Below, in pieces: positions 3,001 through 18,310 of a DNA stretch of 64,000 nucleotides. Within the stretch, counting starts at the first letter, position 1. Each line of letters opens with the position of its first letter. The DNA comes from Rhodamnia argentea (lineage: Eukaryota; Streptophyta; Magnoliopsida; Myrtales; Myrtaceae). Location: positions 21,272,934 through 21,336,933 of the forward strand of contig NC_063151.1 of NCBI RefSeq assembly GCF_020921035.1. Direction: 5' to 3'. The position numbers and the translations under genes are program-made. The notes below the pieces were generated by a model. The model was not told the origin of the DNA. It ran no database searches and saw only the letters and a program-made list of their open reading frames with translations.

Positions 3001-3330
3001 TCTTAATCAAGAGTCACCTCTTTATGATAACAAACTATTTCAATACTTACATCCTAAGTCCTGGCTCAACGAAAGACTAATAAGTCTTTCCAAATAAATG
3101 GCCACACATTAAACATACGATGTGTACTGCACATGAGGACTGAAAATGTAAAGGACAAAATAACGGCCGTAACAAAATGAGAATTCATGAAAGTAATTGT
3201 GTTAATATTGAAAGATTAGGGATAAACGAGTATTACCTCCCAAAATTTACGAGAGTTATGTGTAATTTCTCCCTAAAACCAAATTTGGAATTTTCTCCCA
3301 TTCACCAGGAAGAAGTGATTGTTGACTTGG
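1..3330. other. Gene-poor AT-rich spacer
   Basis: I recognise no gene here. The stretch contains a short run of GAACCGG-type repeats near 286-395 (listed separately), a TATAAATA-like box near 1399 inside a segment that looks LTR-like but has no provable ends, and a GT/GA-rich patch near 2735-2800. A reading frame at 695-1051 has no recognisable domain. Most of the rest looks like degenerate non-coding DNA. Confidence 0.5.
286..395. repeat. GAACCGG-rich palindromic fragment
   Basis: The stretch is built from alternating GGAACCG and CGGTTCC words, so it can fold back on itself many times. The same vocabulary fills the interiors of the hAT-type MITE at 51169-51730 and its relative at 37123-37640. 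I read it as an internal fragment of that family; termini and target duplication are not visible. Confidence 0.45.
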
Positions 3331-3339
3331 TTGTTTATT

Positions 3340-3567
3340 GCCTCGACGGTCCACCAATTTCTTCTATAAATACGTTGGTTGTAATTGGTAGATTTCAGCA
3401 ATTACGCAGCTAGAAGCGAGGAAAAGTCCACCCCGAGCAACTTAAACAACCTGTCATGGCCTCATCACGAAAACAACCCTCAATGTTGTTCCTCACTTGT
3501 GTTCTTCTCATGCTCATACAAGAATTGCCTCGTCTTAATCTCGAAGCTCTCCTCCACTGCCCCTTGC
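3340..3567 (+). pseudogene. Orphan promoter and signal-peptide exon of an LRR receptor kinase
   Basis: A TATAAATA box at 3365-3372 is followed 84 bp later by an ATG at 3456. The next 35 codons (start MASSRKQPSMLFL, ending near EALLHC) match the signal peptide and first LRRNT residues of the intact paralogue that starts at 4353. Both genes even share the words around the TATA box (CTATAAATACGTTGGT). Homology stops at about 3560, where a different repeat beginning TAGGGAAAAATATCG takes over. Nothing downstream continues the gene before 4353. This is a broken 5' end left by duplication or by an insertion; it could still drive transcription towards the intact gene. Confidence 0.7.
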
Positions 3568-4352: not shown

Positions 4353-7300
4353 ATGGCCTGCACGAAAGAACAAGTCTCAATTTTGTTCCTCGCTTATGTC
4401 CTTCTCATGCTCCCGCAAGAAATGTCTGTTCTTGCTTCAACGCGAAGCTCTTCTAAAATGGAAGTGGAGGCACTCCTAAAATGGAAGTCTAACCTAGATG
4501 AGGAGAGCCGCTCTATTTTGTCCTCGTGGAATCAAAGCAACCCTTGTTCATGGCAAGGAATCGTTTGTGATCCTCTTGGGAGTGTCGCCAGCTTGAACCT
4601 TTTGAACTCTACCATACACGGTACGCTTCATCATCTCAATTTCTCCCATTTACCCAACTTGGTCAATCTTCAGTTTGGCAACAACCAACTCCACGGGAAC
4701 ATCCCTCCGAGCATTGGTGATCTTTCCAAGCTCTCTCATCTTAACTTTTCTCAAAATAACCTTTCGGGAAACATTCCAACTCAACTTGGATGGTTGCGAA
4801 CTTTACAAGTTCTAGAGCTTCAGGGTAATAATTTCAGGGGTCAGGTTCCTTCTTTCATTGGAAACATGAGCAGCTTGTGGATGATAGATCTTAGCATGAA
4901 CCTACTCACTGGGATCCTTCCTAAGGAAATAGGAATGTTGGGGTCTCTCAATTTCCTTGATTTTTCAAACAATTATCTTAATGGACCTATCCCTACTACT
5001 CTAGGAAATTTGAGTACTTTGGAATTTCTTTACCTCTATGGCAACCAATTTTCTGGCCCCATACCTTCAGAAGTTGGAGGAATTAGATCCCTCAGACATT
5101 TGCTACTGCAATCCAATAATTTAACAGGTCATATCCCATCATCCATAGGCAACTTGACCAAGCTATATGACCTTCTCCTTTTCCATAACTCATTGTCGGG
5201 TCCTATCCCGTCCTCTATAGGTAACATGGGCAATCTACATGTTCTTGCCCTTTGCTACAATGAGTTGTCAGCCTCAATTCCGAAAGAGATTGGAAAACTA
5301 AGACTCCTCCATGAACTAGATCTTTTTATGAGTAACCTGGAGGGCTTTCTTCCCACAGAGATGAATAATCTCACATCGCTCACACAGCTACGTCTATCTA
5401 ATAACGACTTTGTTGGCCAACTGCCACAAGAAATATGCACTAGCCAAGCTCTTGTAAATTTTAGTGCATCAAACAATCACTTCACTGGACCCATCCCAAG
5501 AAGCCTGAAAAATTGTTCAAGTTTGTATAGAGTTAGGCTCCAACACAATTCGCTCAAGGGAGATATAACAGATGCTCTTGGTGTGTACCCCTACTTGAAT
5601 TACCTTGAGTTGAGTAACAACGAACTTTACGGTGAGCTACCACCGACATTGGGTCTATGTAGAAATTTGACGAGCTTGATGATCTCCAACAATAAAATCT
5701 CTGGTGCCATACCACCTCATCTTGGAAACCTGACGCAATTGCGAAGACTTGACCTTTCTTCAAATGGTATTGTTGGGGAAATTCCTAAAGAACTAGGAAA
5801 ATTGAAATTGCTGCTAGAGCTTTCGTTGGACTGCAACCTTCTTGCAGGCCAGATCCCTCAGGAACTTGGAGCATTGTCCAGTCTGCAGAAACTCAACATT
5901 GCAGCAAACAACTTGAGTGGCTCAATTCCTACCCAACTTGGGGAGGACTCCAACCTTCTATTCTTAAATTTTAGCATGAATATTCTAGAAAGGAGTATTC
6001 CCATTGAGATCAGGAATCTTCAATCTCTTCAACATCTCGATCTGAGTCAGAATTTGCTTACGGGAGAAATACCTGGACAACTTGGGAGATTGCATGTATT
6101 AGAAATACTCAATCTCTCACACAATCAGCTATCAGGTTCAATTGTGTCGACCTTTGATGGCATGACAAGCTTGACATCCATCGACATATCATACAATGAG
6201 TTAGAGGGTCCTTTGCCAAACATTCCCGCCTTTCATAATGCAACAATTGGAGTTGTGAGAGGGAACAAAGGCTTGTGTGGAATTGTTGCTGGTCTCAGCC
6301 CCTGTATGGCAACAACGTCGAAAGGCAGAAACAAAAATGAAAAGTTGCTGCTAGTTTTGATCCCTACTTTGGGTTGCCTACTATCTTTGCTTCTTGTTGT
6401 GGGAGCTTCAACTATTGAACGCCGAAGAGTGAGGAAAACAGGGGCTAGTTCAATTGATGGAGGCAATGAAAACCCATGGGCAATATGGAGCTTTGACGGA
6501 AGAATGGCTTATGAGAGCATTATTGAAGCCACGGAGGAGTTTGATGCCAAATATTGCATCGGTATGGGAGGATATGGGAGTGTCTACAAGGCCCAGTTGC
6601 AAACAGGTGAGACTATTGCAGTGAAGAAATTTAAGGAAGCAGTGGACGTACAAATTGCTAGTCGAAAAGCATTTGAAAGGGAGATTTATGCTCTGACCGA
6701 AACTCGGCATCGGAATATCATTAAGCTCTATGGCTTTTGCTCGAGTTCTCGACATTCATTTTTGGTGTACGAGTTCTTGGAATCTGGCAGCTTGAAGGAT
6801 GTACTGAATAATGAAGAGAGGATGGCAACATTTGATTGGAATAAGAGAGTGAATGTTGTTAAAGGTGTGGCTTATGCTTTGTCCTACATGCACCATGAAC
6901 GCTCTCCTCCTATAATTCATTGAGACATATCGAGCAAGAATATTTTACTAGATGAAGAATACGAAGCTCGGATCTCCGATTTTGGCACGGCTAAGGTTCT
7001 ACAACCTTATTCATCCAATTGGACTTCCTTTGCAGGCACCTTTGGATATGCAGCTCCAGGTAAGTTGGCTACTTCAAAATTTCACCCCACTTCATTTTAT
7101 TGATAGGAAAATGATCATAAAAGATCCTCATCCTTACCTACCTTCCATATATCTTCTCAATACCTAACACCAAGTCAAAACCTATTCATGCGATTTGAAG
7201 GCTCGATTAAAGATCAATTGGGTGAGATGTAGGCCACCACTTGAAATGGTTAAACTTTTTCCTAAAGTAACGGAATATTTTATATCCAATTGGAATCTAA

Positions 7301-7803
7301 AGTATGCGTTTATTTATACTTCATTCTCTATGTTTGATTTACTCAAAATCAGTTTAGATTTACAAAGCGTAGACATTGTAATAAAGCCAGAAAAATTTTG
7401 CTCTTCTCTTCATGTAGAACTCGCATACACAATGGAAGTGAATGAGAAATGCGATGTTTATAGTTTCGGAGTAGTGACTTTGGAAGTACTCATGGGAGGA
7501 CATCCAGGCGATCTCATATCTTCTCTCGCGTCCTCATGTTCATCATCATCTAGCAATTCAACAGCTTCTTGGCCACTAAAAGAAGTTTTAGATCAAAGAA
7601 TTCCATACCCGGACGATGATATGCGAGGGGAAGTGGTTTTGGCGACAAAGATGGCATTTTCATGCTTAAGTCCCAAACCAGAGCATCGTCCAAGCATGCA
7701 ACAAGTTTCTCGGGCGATATCAGCACGTAGCTCGACCATGTTAAGCACATCAGAGGACATCAAATTGGAAGACCTAGTTGATCGTACATGCTTCACTTAT
7801 TGA
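4353..7803 (+). CDS. MIK2-like LRR receptor kinase with a nonsense codon in the HRD motif
   Basis: Two exons, 4353-7059 and 7418-7803, join in phase 1 across a GTAAGT...TAG intron. The start codon leads a signal peptide of about 30 residues. An LRRNT region with EALLKWKS and PCSWQGIVC follows, then some twenty plant-type LRRs (LxxNxLxGxIP), a transmembrane helix near residues 664-686 and a Ser/Thr kinase domain. The kinase has a glycine loop GMGGYGSV (about 735-742), VKK with the catalytic lysine, DFG written as DFGTAK, and GYAAPE. The family is LRR-RLK subgroup XI, MDIS1-interacting receptor-like kinase 2 type, which perceives ligands at the plasma membrane. Codon 857 (6921-6923) is TGA where the motif IIHRD needs CGA; the duplicated copy at about 10,940 still has CGA. 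Everything after it stays open and conserved to the true stop at 7801-7803. Translation as read gives an 856-residue receptor without catalytic loop, activation segment or C-lobe. It is either a young pseudogene, a truncated receptor or a base-call error. Confidence 0.9.
7060..7417 (+). other. Intron of the receptor kinase
   Basis: The donor is CCAG|GTAAGT and the acceptor ATGTAG|AACTCG. Splicing restores the GAA codon of the conserved GYAAPELAYT stretch. The position, in the APE motif of the kinase, is shared with the decayed copy downstream, where the donor is altered to CCAAGTCAGT. Confidence 0.85.
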
Positions 7804-8832: not shown

Positions 8833-9292
8833 GGGGTAAACGACATCGGTGCTCTTGATGAAGTCATAAGGTGAGCTTGGAGAGTGAGCCAATATCACTG
8901 GTATCGAGTGAACTGAGTCTCATTGCCCAAAAGAAAATGTTAAATGGAGGTATAAGAGTTTAGCAGCATTAACAGAGAAAAGAACTGCGCGTGCACGGCG
9001 CTAAAGCAGAGATGTCTGTTATGTGAAGAGGCTGAGAGCAACGAGAAACTGGCAATCCTTTGAAGCTAATGATGGTGGGGGATGAAAAGGCCGTGATGCG
9101 TCAAAAAGAGGTTTTTTCCGGGAAAGATTACAGAAACTTCAACGAAGCAAAGCATTGCTTTTGGACTTTCTAAGAGGGAAATTGATTATATTACAGTTTT
9201 TGGACGACTATTAATGATAACAATCTGTTTTGGGCCACAAAAAAAAAAACAGATAATAATTAATTAAAAATTGTTGTGGAGTCCGTACTTCT
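8833..9292. other. Unique spacer between duplicated receptor-kinase blocks
   Basis: This stretch has no counterpart in the other copy and no recognisable coding potential. It ends with an A-rich run (9239-9250) and AT-rich sequence just before the truncated copy begins. Confidence 0.4.
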
Positions 9293-9522
9293 CGGGACCG
9301 ATAGCATGAAGCCTAAAAAACTGTACGAGCTTGTATAGAGTTAGGCTCCAAAATAACCATCTAAAAGGTAACATTGATGTTCTTGGCTCATACCCCGACT
9401 TGGATTACCTTGAGTTGAGCAATAACGAACTTTACGGAGAGCTTCCACCGAGATTAGGCGAATGGAGCAATTTGACAAGCCTGAAATTCTCCAGCAATAA
9501 ATTTTCGGCCATCCTACCACGT

Positions 9523-9728
9523 TGAACCCCCGTCGGGAGGCGCTCGCCCCGAACCCCCGCCCGCTGACCGGGCAACGGGACACCCGTGTCGGGGGCGCTG
9601 CCCCCGAACCCCCGCATCCCGCGCGTAGGGGTCATATGTCGTTGGGTAACACTTCGGTTTCCCTAAGCTCACGTGGGCGTACCTGGTGTGAGAAACAAGG
9701 GTCCCCGAAGTATTCGCCAACTCCAACA
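9523..9728 (-). mobile_element. Short GC-rich solo LTR
   Basis: Comparison with the intact kinase shows a foreign block between LRR codons. It is bounded by the direct repeat CACGT (9518-9522 and 9729-9733). Read on the minus strand it starts TGTTGGAGTTGG and ends CGGGGGTTCA, the TG...CA termini of an LTR. The 206 bp contain nested palindromes such as GGGGGCGCTGCCCCC. There is no internal domain, so it is most simply a solo LTR left by recombination between the two ends of a retrotransposon. Confidence 0.75.
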
Positions 9729-11021
9729 CACGTGACCTTGGAAAGATGACTCGATTACATGAACTAGACGCATCTTTGAATGATCTTATTGGGGAAATAC
9801 CAAAAGAACTCGGAAATTGCAGTCTCTGCTGGAGCTTTGGCTGGATGGCAACCGTCTCGCGGGCTCTATTCCTCCCGAAATTGGGGCATTGTCTGACTTG
9901 GTACGAATTAACATTGCGGGAAACAAGCTAAGTGGCTTAATCCCTAGAGAACCTGGGGAGTATTTTGAACCTTCAGTATTTAAATTTAAGCAGAAATATT
10001 CTTGAGCAGAGCATTCCAAGTGAAATCGGCAATCTGCACTCTCTTCAAAGTCTCGATCTAAGTCTAAATTTGCTTACCGTAGATATACCTCGACAACTTG
10101 GAGAATTGCTCAGTTTGGAAACACTCAATCTGCACACAATCAATTCTCGGGTTCAATCTCACCTACCTTCGACGGTTCGATAAGCCTGGCATCTGTTGAC
10201 GTATCATATAATGAGTTAGAGGGTCCTGTACCAAAAATTCCAGCCTTTCATAATGCCACAATTGCTATTGTAAGAGAGAATAAAGGCTTTTACGGAAGTC
10301 TTACAGGTCTGACGTATTTTCCAGATTTGGCGAGGAAAGGGAAAGACAGAGACAAGAATTTGCTGCTCATTTTACTTCCTACTACTTCTGATTGCGTGCT
10401 TGCTTTGTTTCTTGTAGTTGGAGTTTCAAGCATTGTACGCCGAAGAGCAAGGAACGGAGAGCACACTTTGAGAAAAGCGAGCAGCCAAAGTATGTTCGAA
10501 ATATTGGGCTACAATGGAAGAACGGTGTACGAGAACATCAATGAAGCCACCGAGGAATTCGATGCCAAATACTTCGCCGGCATGCGAGGACATGGGAGCC
10601 TTTATAAGGCCACATTGCGATCGGGCGAGATTGTTGCTGTGAAGAAACTTAATGAAGCACCGGATGCCGAATCGGCGAGTCGAAAAGCATTCAAAAGAGA
10701 GATTCATGCTTTGATGGAAACCCAACACCGGAATATAGTCAAGCTGTACGGCTTTTGTTCGAGATCTCCCCATTCCTTTCTGGTTTTCGAGTTTCTCGAA
10801 TCGGGCTCCTTGGAGGATATATTGAAGAGCTAACAAAGGATAACAATGTTCAACCGGAAGAAGAGATTGAATGCTGTTAAAGGTGTGGCTTATGCTTTGG
10901 GCTACATGCATTTGGAATGCTCTCCTCCAATAATTCATCGAGACGTATGCGGCAAGAACATTTTACTGGACGCATGATGCGAAGCTCACATATCTGATTT
11001 TGGCACGGCCAAGGTTCTACA

Positions 11022-11687
11022 TGTTAGATATTTCAGTAGTTTTGAAACATTCTTGTACAATAATTTTGATAGAATTTTGACCGCAATGATTAGCCATTAT
11101 TATTTTCAACGGTCGATTTTCTAATGGTCGTATGATGGTTTTCTAATGACAAGCGCAGACGTTGGCGAGCTCGGACGTTGGCGAGTTCGGAAGGCGACAA
11201 GCTTAGGCTCTAAGGAGAGTCTCAGAAGTAACGTTCTCTATCCTCCATTAATATGTGACGGTTCTATAATGATTTTGCAACAGTCATGTAACGGTTTTCT
11301 AACGGCTTTATAACGACCATGTAAAAGTTGATTTATTTCTTCATAAACCCTCCATTACTTTACAATGGCTTCATAATGGTTTCTCAACGGCCATATTTTG
11401 GTTGAATATAAATTGAATTTCAAAAAACAGTCTTCCGAGGATTTTTGCATTACATAAGAGAGTTTTTCCCTTTTTTTTCATTTTCTTCTTTGCTAAGTTA
11501 TACACATAACGTTGTTCATGTTCCTTCAAATATTCAGTGCGGAATATAGAAGAGATATGTTGTATCTTGGGAGAATAACCACTAGAGCCTTACACACTGA
11601 GTATCGCACTTAGAGAGGTAGAATTATTCTTAAGGATAGTATTTGCACGCCTCGGACAATCTTATTTTTCCATCAATCATATCAACA
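11022..11687 (+). repeat. 5' LTR of the Copia element
   Basis: The 666-bp LTR starts TGTTAGATATTTCAG and ends CATATCAACA. It has a TATA-like AATATAAATT near 11406 and about two copies of a 16-bp GAGCTCGGACGTTGGC word near 11151-11195, where the 3' LTR has an extra copy. Confidence 0.85.
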
Positions 11688-14600
11688 ATCTTAAGGATAA
11701 TCCTAATGGATACTCCATTTGATACCAACACTGCTGTTGCTACTGCCGCCGCCGCCGCCGTCGCCGTCGCCATTATTGCTCAAGATGCATCTATCTCGCC
11801 ACTCCGGTTGCGCTGCCACAATAACCACATATGTCCTATGCTAAGCCATTTCCTGACATATCAAAGAGTGAAGTTTTTAATGGCAACAACTTCAAAAGGT
11901 GGCAGAAAAGAGTTTTCTCTATCCTAGATGTGCATGGCGTGGCTTTCGTACTTATAGAGGCCGAACCAACTAAAAATAATCTGCGAGAACAATGGATCCA
12001 TGCTAATAAGGTATGTATGTGACAATTATCAGTACGCTTTCTAATGAATTGTTTGATGTCTATTGTCCGTACAAGGAAGCAAAACAAATATGGGAATCCA
12101 TGATTGCAAAGTACACTGCCTAAGATGTGGGCGGACAGAAGTTCCCGATCGAAAATTATTATCATTGGGAAATGTCCAATGATAAGAAGATCCAAATGCA
12201 AATCAATGAATATCACGAGCTGGCAGAGGACTTGAAAGTGGAAAATATCAATTTGCAAGAAGAATTTGTTGCGGGGTTGCTGATTGAAAAATTGCCTCAC
12301 TTGTGGAATGACTACAAGCAATAACTCAAGCACAAAGACAAGCAACTTGCTGATCTAGTTGTTCATATTATCAATGAGGATACAACTTGCAAGGAGATCA
12401 AAGCTGCCAAAGCTAAGGAGATCGTTACAATGGCAAATTTTGTGCAAGGCAAACCTCAACATCAGCAAAAAAGGTACAATACAAAAAACCTGATTACAAA
12501 CCCAAAGCTGCTCACCCCACCTTCAAAAGGAAAGGCACTTGTTTTGTTTGTGGTGAATCAGGTCATCATGCAGCACAGTGTGGATCGCATAATGGGAAAT
12601 AACAATCCTACTAAACCAAAGGTTAATTTCATTGAAGCAGATCACCTTAATAACATCATTGTTGCGCTCATTTCCCAAGCCAATGTTATGGCCAATATGA
12701 AAGAATGGGTGGTAGACTCAGGTGCTACCAAGCATATTTGTGCAAACAAAAATGCCTTTTCCTCCTAATCACCAATAGGGGATGGAAAAGAGATTATTTA
12801 TCTAGACGATTCAAGAACAGCGCAAGTTCTTGGTAAAGGGAAAGCCCTTCTCAAACTTACATATGGCAAAACTTTGGCATTGAAGGATGTACTGCATGTC
12901 CCTAATATAAGGGCGAACCTGATTTCGGTAGCTCTTTTGGGAAAGGTTGGGGTGAAGGTGTCATTCGAATCTGACAAGATTGTAATGACCAAAAATAACG
13001 TCTTTGTGGAAAATGGTTATTGTCAACGGGGGCTTTTTGTTAACGTTTCCAATGTTATCAATGAAAATGCCACTTCTTTTACTTACTTGGTTGAATCTAT
13101 TGATTTGTGGCACAATAGATTAGGACATGTTAATATTTCTTATATTAAGAAAATGCAACAACAAGGTTTAATTTCTGGGATGGAAGATCAACATCTTAAT
13201 AAATGTATAATATGTGCCAAAACAAAATTAGCTAAGAGGCCTTGTATTTCTGTAAAGAGACAATCTAAATTGTTGAGCTTAATTCATACTGATCTAGGAG
13301 ATTTAAAACAAACTATGACTAGAGGAGGTAAACAATATTACATGACTTTCATCGAGGATTATTCGAGATTTACTAAAGTTTATTTACATAGACATAAAGA
13401 TGAAGGTTTTGATATGTTTCTTTTGTATAAATCTGAGGTAGAAAATCGATTGGAAAAAAGGATAAAAAGAGTAAGATCGGATAGACGTTGAGAATACGTC
13501 TTGCTTGATGAATTTTGTGAAAAGGAAGAAATAATTCATGAAACTACCCCTCCGTATTCTCCTGAATCAAATGGTGTAGCAGAAAGGAAAAATAGGACAT
13601 TAAAAGAAATGATGAATTCTATGATTGTTAGTTCTAAAGCTCCTAATAATTTATAGGGTGAAGCAATATTATTTGCTTGTCACATTCAAAACACAATACC
13701 TCATAAGAAAACCGGTTAAACACCTTATAAATTATGGAAGGGTTATTCTCCTAATTTAAAATATTTGAAAGTGTGGGGGTGCCTTGCTAAGGTTGTGCTT
13801 CCTAGTTCTAAGAAACGAAAAATAGGCTCTAAGATATCTGATTGTGTGTTTATTGGTAATGCTGAACCTAGTGCTGCATATAGATTTCTTGTATTAAAAA
13901 AGTGGTGTGCTTAATAGTAATACAATTGTTGAGAAAAAGAAGGCAGAATTTTTTTAGCATATTTTTCCGTTACGAATTGACACTGTTTCTCCTGCATCTC
14001 TTCATAAAAATGATTTTGAAAATTCAAATGATGAATTGCGGGGGAGTAAAAGAATAAGAAAAGAAACTTCTTTTGAAAATGATCTTTATACTTATCTTAT
14101 TGATAATGATCCTTTAAGATATTCTGAAGCCATATCTTCTAGAGAAAGCAATATATGGAAAGAAGCCATAAAAATTGAGATTGATTCTATTTTACAAAAT
14201 AAAACTTGGGAATTGGTTGATTTAACACCAAATGAGAAACCGATTGGTTGTAAATGGATCTTTAAGAGGAAAATTTACCCTTATGGTTCTATTGATAAAT
14301 ATGAAGCAAGATTAGTCGCAAAAGGTTATACTCAAAAACAAAATGTTGACTATTTCGATACCTTTACTCCAGTAGCAAGAATTTCCTCGATTCGTGTTTT
14401 ATTTGCATTCGCTTCAATTTACAAACTTGTTGTGCACCAAATGGATGTTAAAACAGCTTTTCTAAAAGGTGATTTAGAAGAAGAAATTTACATGATGCAA
14501 CTTGAAGGTTGTATTCTTCTTGGTCAACAAAATAAAGTTTGTAAACTTCTTATATCCTTATATGGCTCAAAGCAAGCGCCAAACAATAGCATGATAAATT

Positions 14601-16219
14601 TGATCAAGTTCTAGTCAATAATGGATTTTGCTCCATTGGAGTTGATAAATGTGTGTATACACAAAAACTATTGATGGTGAATGTATAATTATTAGCCTAT
14701 ATGTTGATGACATGCTTATTTTTGGTACGCGTATTGATGTTGTAAATGAAACAAAACGTTTCTTGACTTCTAAATTTGATATGAAGGATTTAGGAGAAGC
14801 TAATATTATTTTGGGTGCTAGAATCGTAAGAAGTGACCGTGGCCTTATGCTTACGCAAAAGCAATACATGGAGAGGCCACTTAAAAAATATGAGCATTTT
14901 GATGTCACACCTGTGAGTACTACTTATGATTCTTATACCCAATTAGTGAAAAATAAAGAAGATAGTGTGGATCGGTCTAAGTATGCTCGGATTATTGGGA
15001 GTCTGATGCATTTGATGAGCTATATACGAATTGATACAGCATATGTTGTATGGAGACCGAGCAGATATACATAAATCCCAATTGTGATCATTGGACTTCT
15101 TTGAGCAGAGTAATGAAATATTTGAAAGGAACCATAAATTATGGTGCCTTATATAGTGGATTTCCCACAGTATTAGAAGTATACAATAATGCTAACTGGA
15201 TTTAAATTCAGACTAGACAAAATCCACTAGTAGATATGTATTCACCCTTGGTGGAAGTGTTGTAACATGGAAGTCACCCAAACAAACAATATTTGCTAAA
15301 TCCACCATGGAGTTAGAGTTTGTAGCTCTTGAATTAACAGGTAATGAGGCTGAGTGGTTAAAAAACTTATTAGCAGATATTCCTTTGAGAATAAAACAGA
15401 CACCTTCGGTGTCTATGTATTATAATTGCTAAGCGGCAATACCCATTGCAAAGAATAACACTTTTAATGGTAAAAATAGACACATCCGGTTGAGACATGA
15501 TGTGATAAAGCAGCTGCTTAAGGATGGAATTATATCCATCAATTATGTAAAGTCAGAAGTGAACTTGGCCAATCCTCCGACTAAACCTTTGGGAAGGAAA
15601 TTAATTTTTGATACATTGAGGGGGATGGGAGTTAAGCGGGTTGAAAAAAATCAACAGTGATGATAACCCAACCTATATGATTGGCGTTCCCATGAATTAG
15701 GTTATATGGATAGTAACAAGTCACTTGTTGATCTTGTGATGCACTATAAAATTTAGGTCCCTCCTAAAGTGATAATAGTGCAAGTCTGCAAGGAAAAAGA
15801 AGTTGAGCAAAGCTCTTAATGAATTCCATAGCCATTATTGGTGGTGTATTAAGCTGCAGAATACACTTAATGGAATTACCTATTTGAGTGTGGAGTGAGG
15901 ACGCTGCTATGAGAATTATTGGCAATAATCTCTAGAGCACTTATGAATAAACTAAGTGCACGCATGGCCTATTAGTACAAAACCGCGTCAAACAACAAAC
16001 CTTATTGAAGTGCAATATGATTAGTGAAAATTATAATTCACAAAAAGGAATTCTTGGTTCATAGAAGTTTTAAACTTCAGCAATAATTTCGTGAGTTATA
16101 TTTCATTCTTTCTAGGCTGGTTCATAGCCTAATAAGCACCAGTTCCAATGCATTACGCTTCAATAACACACTTTATTTCAATTTTATCTTTTCAAAATTT
16201 TTTGAAATATGTGGACGAT

Positions 16220-16902
16220 TGTTGGATATTTCGGTAGTTTTGAAATATTATTTTACAATATTTTTGATAGAATTTTGACCGTAATGATTAGCCATCATTA
16301 TTTCCAATGATCAGTTTTATAACGATCGTATAAACGATTTTCTAATGACAAGCTCGGACGTTGATGAGCTCGGACGTTGGCGAGCTCGGATGTTGGCGAG
16401 CTCAGAAGCTAACAAGCTTAGACTTTGAGTAGAGTCTCAGAAGCAACATTCCATGTCCTTCATTAATATATAACGGTTCTATAATGGTTTTGCAATGATC
16501 ATGTAACGATTTTTTAACAACTTTATAATGACCATGCAAAAGCTGATTTATTTTTTCATAAACTCTCCATTATTTTACAACGGCTTTATAACGGTTTCTC
16601 AATGGCTATATTTTGGTTGAATATAAATTGAATTTCAAGAAACAATCTTTTGAGGGTTTTTGCATTACATAATAGAGTTTTTCCCTTCTTTCATTTTCTT
16701 CTTTGCTAGGTTATACACATAACGTTGTTTCTGTTCCTTTTAATATTCAGTGCGGAATATAGAAGAATGTCTGTTATATCTTGAGAGGATAGCCGCTAGA
16801 GTCTTCCGCACCGAGTATCGCACTCCAAGAGGCAGAATTATCCTTAAGGACAGTGCTTGCATGCCTCAGACAATTCCTGTTTTTCCATCAATCGTAACAA
16901 CA
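16220..16902 (+). repeat. 3' LTR of the Copia element
   Basis: The 683-bp LTR starts TGTTGGATATTTCGG and ends CGTAACAACA. The sequence just before it (GTGGACGAT) is a worn polypurine tract. It carries one more GAGCTCGGACGTTGGC-like unit (16350-16400) than the 5' LTR, which accounts for most of the 17-bp length difference. Confidence 0.85.
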
Positions 16903-17910
16903 CTACAACCTTATTCATCCAATTGGACTTCCCTTACAAGCACCTTTGGAAATGCAGCTCCAAGTCAGTTGGTTTCTTTAATATTTCACCCACCTTCATT
17001 TTTATAGATCGAAAAATGCTTATACAAGATCCCTTGCTTTAAAATTCTAAATACAAAGCTATTTACACTATTTGAAGGTTCGATAATGGATAACTGAGAT
17101 TTAGGCCGCCAATTAACGAAGTGAAATTTTTTCCAAAAGAAATGAGAAATTTAAAATCCCATTGGAATCTAAAGAATGTGTTGATTTATACTTAATTTTC
17201 TAAATTTGATTTTATTTTTCAATGCCAGCTTAGATTTACGAAGCATGAATATTTTGTACAAGCTAGAAAAAATCTGCTCTTTTCTTTATGTAGAGCTCGC
17301 ATACACTAGGGAATTGAACGAGACATGCGATGTTCATAGCTTCGGAATGGCGACTTGGAAGTAATCATGGAAAGACATCCGGGCAATCTCATATCTTCTC
17401 TCGTGTCCTCATCTTCATCATCATCTAGCAATTCAACAGCTTCTTGGCCACTGAAAGAAGTTTTAGATCAGAGAATTCCATACCCAGAAGGTGATGTGCT
17501 AGGGGAAGTGGCTTTGGTGACAAAGATGGCATTTTCGTGCTTGAGTCCCAAACCAGAGCATCATCCAAGCATGCAACAAGTTTCTCGGGCGATATCAGCA
17601 CATAGGTCGACCGTGTTAAGCGCATCAGAGGATATCAAATTGGAAGAACTAGTTGATCGTACATTCTTCACTTAGTGAGACATTTCAGTCTTTCTGCTGC
17701 AGCCTGTGTAGCAAGCCATCTCTTGTACTTCATGTATCTTAGCTAATTCCATTATCTATTTCTGTAATGGTTCATTAGTTATTTGAAAGCACTTGGGAAT
17801 TACTGTCATTTGCAATTCCAACCCGGAAGAGACAGCCTACAACTGTGACGTCCAATCCTTAAGAATGGCTTTAAAGATAACAAGATCACGATATTTACCA
17901 TCGCTATTAC

Positions 17911-18310
17911 ATTTTTTTTTATTGAAAGATAATTTCCATTCATTAAGCCTCGAGAGATACATTGAAGGATTTCAAGCCCAGCGAATCCCAAATAACTGCA
18001 GAAATATCGAAAAGCATTTAACAAAACACACTCTGCAGCTAAAAACACACTCTCATCCCTTCAGAACAGATCTATCATCGTAAATATTCGGCAGCCAATC
18101 ACCAAATCTAGTGACAAACACACGTCGAGATCTCTCACCACATTTGAACAGCTTGCAATGCATGTCTAGGTTCGACGTCCCACTAGTAACACCAACATCA
18201 ATATATTGAAATAGCACAGTCAAATACCTTTAAGGAACTCCCAAATCTATATCTCAATCTAGTTCGGACGAGTAAAACCCCCAAATCTTGCATCTAGTTT
18301 TGTGAAAATG
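17911..18310 (-). mobile_element. Possible minus-strand non-LTR retroelement fragment
   Basis: The block interrupts homology between the 3' flanks of the two receptor-kinase copies. It opens with a T run followed by ATTGAAAGATAATTTCC, so on the minus strand it ends ...TATCTTTCAATAAAAAAAA, like a polyadenylated LINE 3' end. No coding motif or clean target duplication was identified. Confidence 0.4.

Follow-up and report, generated by a model that had tools for sequence, protein, structure and literature searches.

Several described receptor systems invite comparison with the locus analysed here. Arabidopsis MIK2 is an LRR receptor kinase for SCOOP peptides, and its SCOOP pocket includes residues D246, N268, S292, H294, and H316 (PMC11331138, in excerpt); the same excerpt reports neither MIK2 homologues nor SCOOPs outside Brassicales. 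An engineered kinase-less ERECTA, in which a stop follows the TM, acts as a dominant negative (PMC8148577, in excerpt). Arabidopsis RLK subclades with presence/absence variation tend to come from tandem or proximal duplication, according to the available part of PMC12382012. Recent single-nonsense pseudogenes in tandem LRR-RLK arrays form a further point of comparison. The gene described here lies in a window (i.e., the whole 64,000-nucleotide stretch of DNA analysed, C2:21272934-21336933, in an assembly of 346.7 Mb) and is very probably a recent null, or nascent pseudogene, in a tandem LRR receptor kinase array.

The initial annotation had placed a nonsense codon exactly at the HRD arginine of a receptor kinase, and direct reading of the sequence bore this out. 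The frame runs ATA ATT CAT TGA GAC, in which the TGA at window positions 6921-6923 (codon 857) replaces the arginine of the kinase HRD motif, and the open reading frame 4353..6923, encoding 856 residues, terminates there. The ectodomain frame is fully open, and reading is uninterrupted up to 6920. Joining 7059 to 7418 yields a coding sequence (CDS) of 3,093 nt in which only codons 857 and 1031 are in-frame stops, and no premature stop or frameshift besides codon 857 was found in the gene (4353-7803). LRRNT_2, LRR, and Pkinase were identified by Pfam, and the Pkinase match extends beyond the stop. Among solved kinases, BRI1 is nearest, and its residue aligned to the stop is the R of HRD. The features of the gene are as follows:

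4353..7059, plus strand: exon 1 of the LRR receptor kinase (signal peptide, LRRNT_2, LRRs, TM, and kinase N-lobe to APE; donor CAG/GTAAGT; Pfam)
6921..6923, plus strand: premature TGA, codon 857, at the HRD arginine (CGA in sister copies L010 and L011)
7060..7417, plus strand: intron, GT..AG, phase 1, with splice sites retained in L011
7418..7803, plus strand: exon 2, open up to the natural stop

Two near-identical sister copies were central to the interpretation. L011, located 50.3 kb upstream (C2:21226963 onward), encodes an uninterrupted 1,030-residue receptor with CGA at the HRD site; its CDS of 3,093 nt has a single stop at the end and GT/AG splice sites, and aligns with the window copy without gaps. 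This ungapped alignment confirmed the earlier statement that the remainder of the gene is intact through exon 2 to the natural stop. The TGA had also been called the only lesion, which holds for stops and indels (0 gaps relative to L011 over 3,093 nt) but not for missense changes: 40 codons differ between the two copies (25 missense, 14 silent, and 1 nonsense), so that 25 codons differ by residue. L010, which also has CGA at the HRD site, lies approximately 250 kb upstream, and its 5' half begins at 21027487. Its sequence has one extra nucleotide after window position 5845, and its match to the window gene breaks at 5980-5986 and restarts about 13.4 kb further on. The insert is probably a transposable element, because the portion read is 93-95% identical, over about 3 kb, to repeats found at other places in the array. 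L010 is a mosaic (L010/L043 compared with 4353-7803): in its 5' part it has derived letters in common with L011, and from about 5551 onward with the window copy; read from these letters, the pattern represents a recent exchange between array members.

The window also contains remnants of other copies, as follows:

3322..3553, plus strand: upstream fragment of another copy, matching the promoter and signal-peptide start of the window gene at 73-80%
9286..11021, plus strand: 5' part of a decayed downstream paralogue, with CGA at the HRD arginine
11022..16902, plus strand: element inside the decayed paralogue, with LTR-like ends (11022-11687 and 16220-16902, about 83% identical) and a CTACA target duplication
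16903..17914, plus strand: 3' part of the decayed paralogue (end of exon 1, intron, exon 2, and 3' flank)

The decayed paralogue is a composite. In its 5' part, identity is about 86-87% to copies of the L021/L022 type and only about 73% to the window gene; in exon 2, identity to the window gene is about 92%. This pattern suggests gene conversion or exchange.

As previously noted, the decayed downstream copy carries CGA at the position in question (CAT CGA GAC, read as IIHRD). The accompanying proposal that arginine is ancestral and that the change was C to T in a CpG was likewise upheld because both sisters, which are 99.3-100% identical to the window copy across the kinase exons, read CGA. 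A CpG transition in the window copy would thus have converted the HRD arginine codon to TGA. The window CDS contains seven further CGA codons, each one CpG transition away from TGA. The HRD arginine is one of eight such hot sites in the gene, and therefore a stop there needs no special cause; special selection of the HRD codon was rejected on the same count. The CpG observed/expected ratio is 0.45 in exon 1 and 0.83 in the whole window, and the low value for exon 1 is compatible with past methylation without being proof of it. The ratio of the window gene (0.45; 4353-7059) is also lower than that of the decayed paralogue (0.95; 9286-11021), which is the opposite of the pattern of a long-methylated pseudogene.

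To place the codon within the array, the assembly was compared with a 301-base probe around it, which gave 40 scored matches, some of them two pieces of one copy; 24 of the 40 lie on C2 between 20.5 and 21.3 Mb. Twenty loci, including the window's own, were fetched, and the privacy of the TGA refers to these 20 loci read of the 40 matches and to the decayed paralogue. In the 19 other loci, the HRD codon is CGA (13), CGT (4), AGG (1), or CAT (His; 1), such that 18 of 19 encode arginine and none has a stop; TGA was seen only in the window copy. The histidine codon belongs to L024 (C2:21109600-21115400), an otherwise decayed-looking copy whose near relatives have CGT, so that the same CpG seems to have mutated on the opposite strand.

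Gene models transferred from the window copy were open in 9 of the 20 loci (L011, L013, L014, L015, L017, L020, L023, L025, and L026, with the ATG of L023, L025, and L026 one codon ahead of the aligned start). By the same models, one nonsense codon interrupts each of the window copy and L018, and L012, L016, and L021 have one 1-nt frameshift each, L021 also lacking an aligned donor; hence, at least four other loci (L012, L016, L018, and L021) have a single frameshift or stop as their chief coding lesion, and decayed copies are common among array members. The remaining loci (L010, L019, L022, L024, L027, and L028) fail in several ways, although the transferred model may itself be wrong for the distant L028 and for rearranged loci. 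The LRR count differs widely among array members through in-frame steps of 72-648 nt, and the open L017 (C2:20702500-20708300, minus strand; 1,307 residues) has an expanded run of near-identical LRRs.

These comparisons bear on whether the TGA could have arisen in assembly or base calling, or could be a polymorphic allele (a heterozygous or cultivar variant) at a locus that is normally intact. Such an origin would fit a sole disabling change that falls in a CpG and differs from both sisters by one base, and the near sister copies make read mapping hard. However, the window copy has other differences from both sisters (6651 and 7289), comparable single lesions occur in other array copies, and CpG to TpG is at the same time the most frequent natural mutation. 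We therefore regard an error or a segregating allele as unlikely.

The sister copies also provide a relative age for the stop. The 3' tract shared by the window copy and L010 spans about 2.2 kb, and between 5551 and 7803 the window copy is unlike both sisters at 6651, 6921, and 7289 only. At 6651, the derived state of the window copy is backed by eight of eight outgroups; at 6921, C is present in seven of eight outgroups and A in one (an AGG codon); at 7289, the window copy has the same letter as four of five outgroups, so this site may be old and need not be derived there. The TGA therefore arose after the last exchange with L010. As far as these alignments indicate, the TGA is young and private to the window copy, in relative terms and with no absolute date.

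The window copy and L011 give an NG86 omega of 0.49, which is inside the range of two open-copy pairs (0.40 for L013-L015 and 0.54 for L023-L025); thus, no long unconstrained period appears to be visible in the window copy. Polarised sites amount to 12 nonsynonymous (stop included) and 5 synonymous changes on the window branch, compared with 12 and 5 on the L011 branch; seven coding sites that differ between the two copies have no resolved polarity, and one intron site differs as well. With so few changes, the branch counts and omega point neither to decay nor to selection favouring a truncated form. The suggested comparison of LRR dN/dS with an intact paralogue was run on these pairs (0.49 versus 0.40 and 0.54) and proved uninformative for a change so young. 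By these counts, the L011 lineage would have changed as much as that of the window copy, and the intactness of L011 is no proof of function.

The exon junction follows the stop by 136 nt, and the transcript downstream of the stop comprises 522 nt derived from coding sequence together with the former 3' UTR. In plants, nonsense-mediated decay (NMD) is promoted by a distance of at least 50-55 nt to a downstream junction or by a 3' UTR of at least 300-350 nt (PMC5040709, in excerpt), and by its geometry the TGA lies beyond both values given there. NMD of the window-gene mRNA is predicted because the stop precedes the junction by that distance. The truncated protein, if made, would presumably end after kinase helix alpha-E and would be without the catalytic loop, DFG, activation segment, and rest of the C-lobe. 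An in-frame splice that skips the codon had been raised as a way around the stop. Among potential donors between 6301 and 6921 that score at least 7 of 9, two candidates are in phase with the normal acceptor:

6607..6608, plus strand: candidate donor-like GT that matches 8 of 9 consensus positions and is in phase with the acceptor at 7418
6865..6866, plus strand: candidate donor-like GT that matches 7 of 9 consensus positions and is in phase with the acceptor at 7418

Skipping of the TGA in frame is thus formally possible from 6607 or 6865, but 151 or 65 residues would be lost, including HRD, DFG, and the activation loop, and no active kinase would result. Rescue by splicing was rejected because both candidate donors would delete the catalytic loop. 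The base after the TGA is G, which is not a strong readthrough context. It is thus extremely improbable that readthrough or alternative splicing preserves a full or near-full receptor.

The initial annotation had proposed a decoy or dominant-negative receptor for MIK2-type ligands, and neither part of this proposal was supported. A truncated receptor consisting of LRRs, TM, and kinase N-lobe could be made from the fully open ectodomain frame, and the kinase-less ERECTA (PMC8148577, in excerpt) provides a precedent for its action. Like ERECTA delta-Kinase as described in that excerpt, the window product would keep LRRs and TM and have no working kinase; unlike it, the window stop is not engineered, expressed from a transgene, and set right after the TM, but falls within the kinase domain, with an exon junction downstream of it. 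The product would accordingly end within a folded domain and not cleanly after the TM. Moreover, NMD is predicted from the values excerpted from PMC5040709, the TGA is private and very young, omega is not shifted, and none of the measures indicates selection for a truncated form. It is very unlikely that such a truncated receptor is produced and functions as a decoy or dominant negative. We hold in equally low regard the fuller version, in which the truncated copy would escape decay and compete with the intact sister L011 for ligand or co-receptor, as a natural decoy that one CpG transition created in a newly formed segmental duplicate. A stably expressed truncated form, if true, would be a natural test of decoy receptors; nothing here points that way.

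With respect to ligands, the window gene has the LRR receptor kinase architecture of MIK2 and shares its LRRNT, LRR, and C-cap layout; by sequence, its ectodomain is MIK2-like, at about 44% identity. The nearest solved ectodomains are GSO1 first and MIK2 second for the window copy, and MIK2 first for the paralogue L013. Most paralogues of the window copy contain more LRRs than it does, with in-frame length differences of 72-648 nt. None of the five SCOOP-pocket residues is present in any of nine family members aligned with MAFFT, or in L013 aligned with HMMER, the LRR register being uncertain in both alignments as repeat numbers differ. A MIK2 ligand pocket in the window gene was therefore rejected (0/5 residues).

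The reading that we favour, a recent null, corresponds to the first step in gene loss mentioned in the initial annotation, which is supported by a young, private TGA in an otherwise intact gene with an intact sister. Segmental duplication would have produced at least three near-identical copies, of which one then acquired the stop, and with L011 intact 50 kb upstream, the loss is probably tolerated. Directly established are the premature stop and its restriction to the window copy, the existence of an intact sister, the youth of the change, and the exon geometry. We infer mRNA decay, redundancy, and loss of function. The change is best described as a young CpG-transition null in a redundant duplicate because the sisters have CGA, L011 is intact, and the TGA is private among the loci read.

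The locus thereby offers a snapshot of receptor-kinase gene death, in which one copy is intact, a second is stopped at a CpG, and a third has a frameshift and an insertion. Its annotation should read pseudogene or null allele, and work on ligands or immunity should be directed to the intact sister L011. The closest likeness is to recent single-nonsense pseudogenes in tandem LRR-RLK arrays, with which it shares a near-identical intact sister, a disabling change confined to one copy, decay in other copies, and a neighbour broken by a transposon. No departure of the window gene from that pattern was found, the stop happening to fall on a famous catalytic residue, and the locus represents ordinary birth-and-death evolution in a redundant, fast-turning array.
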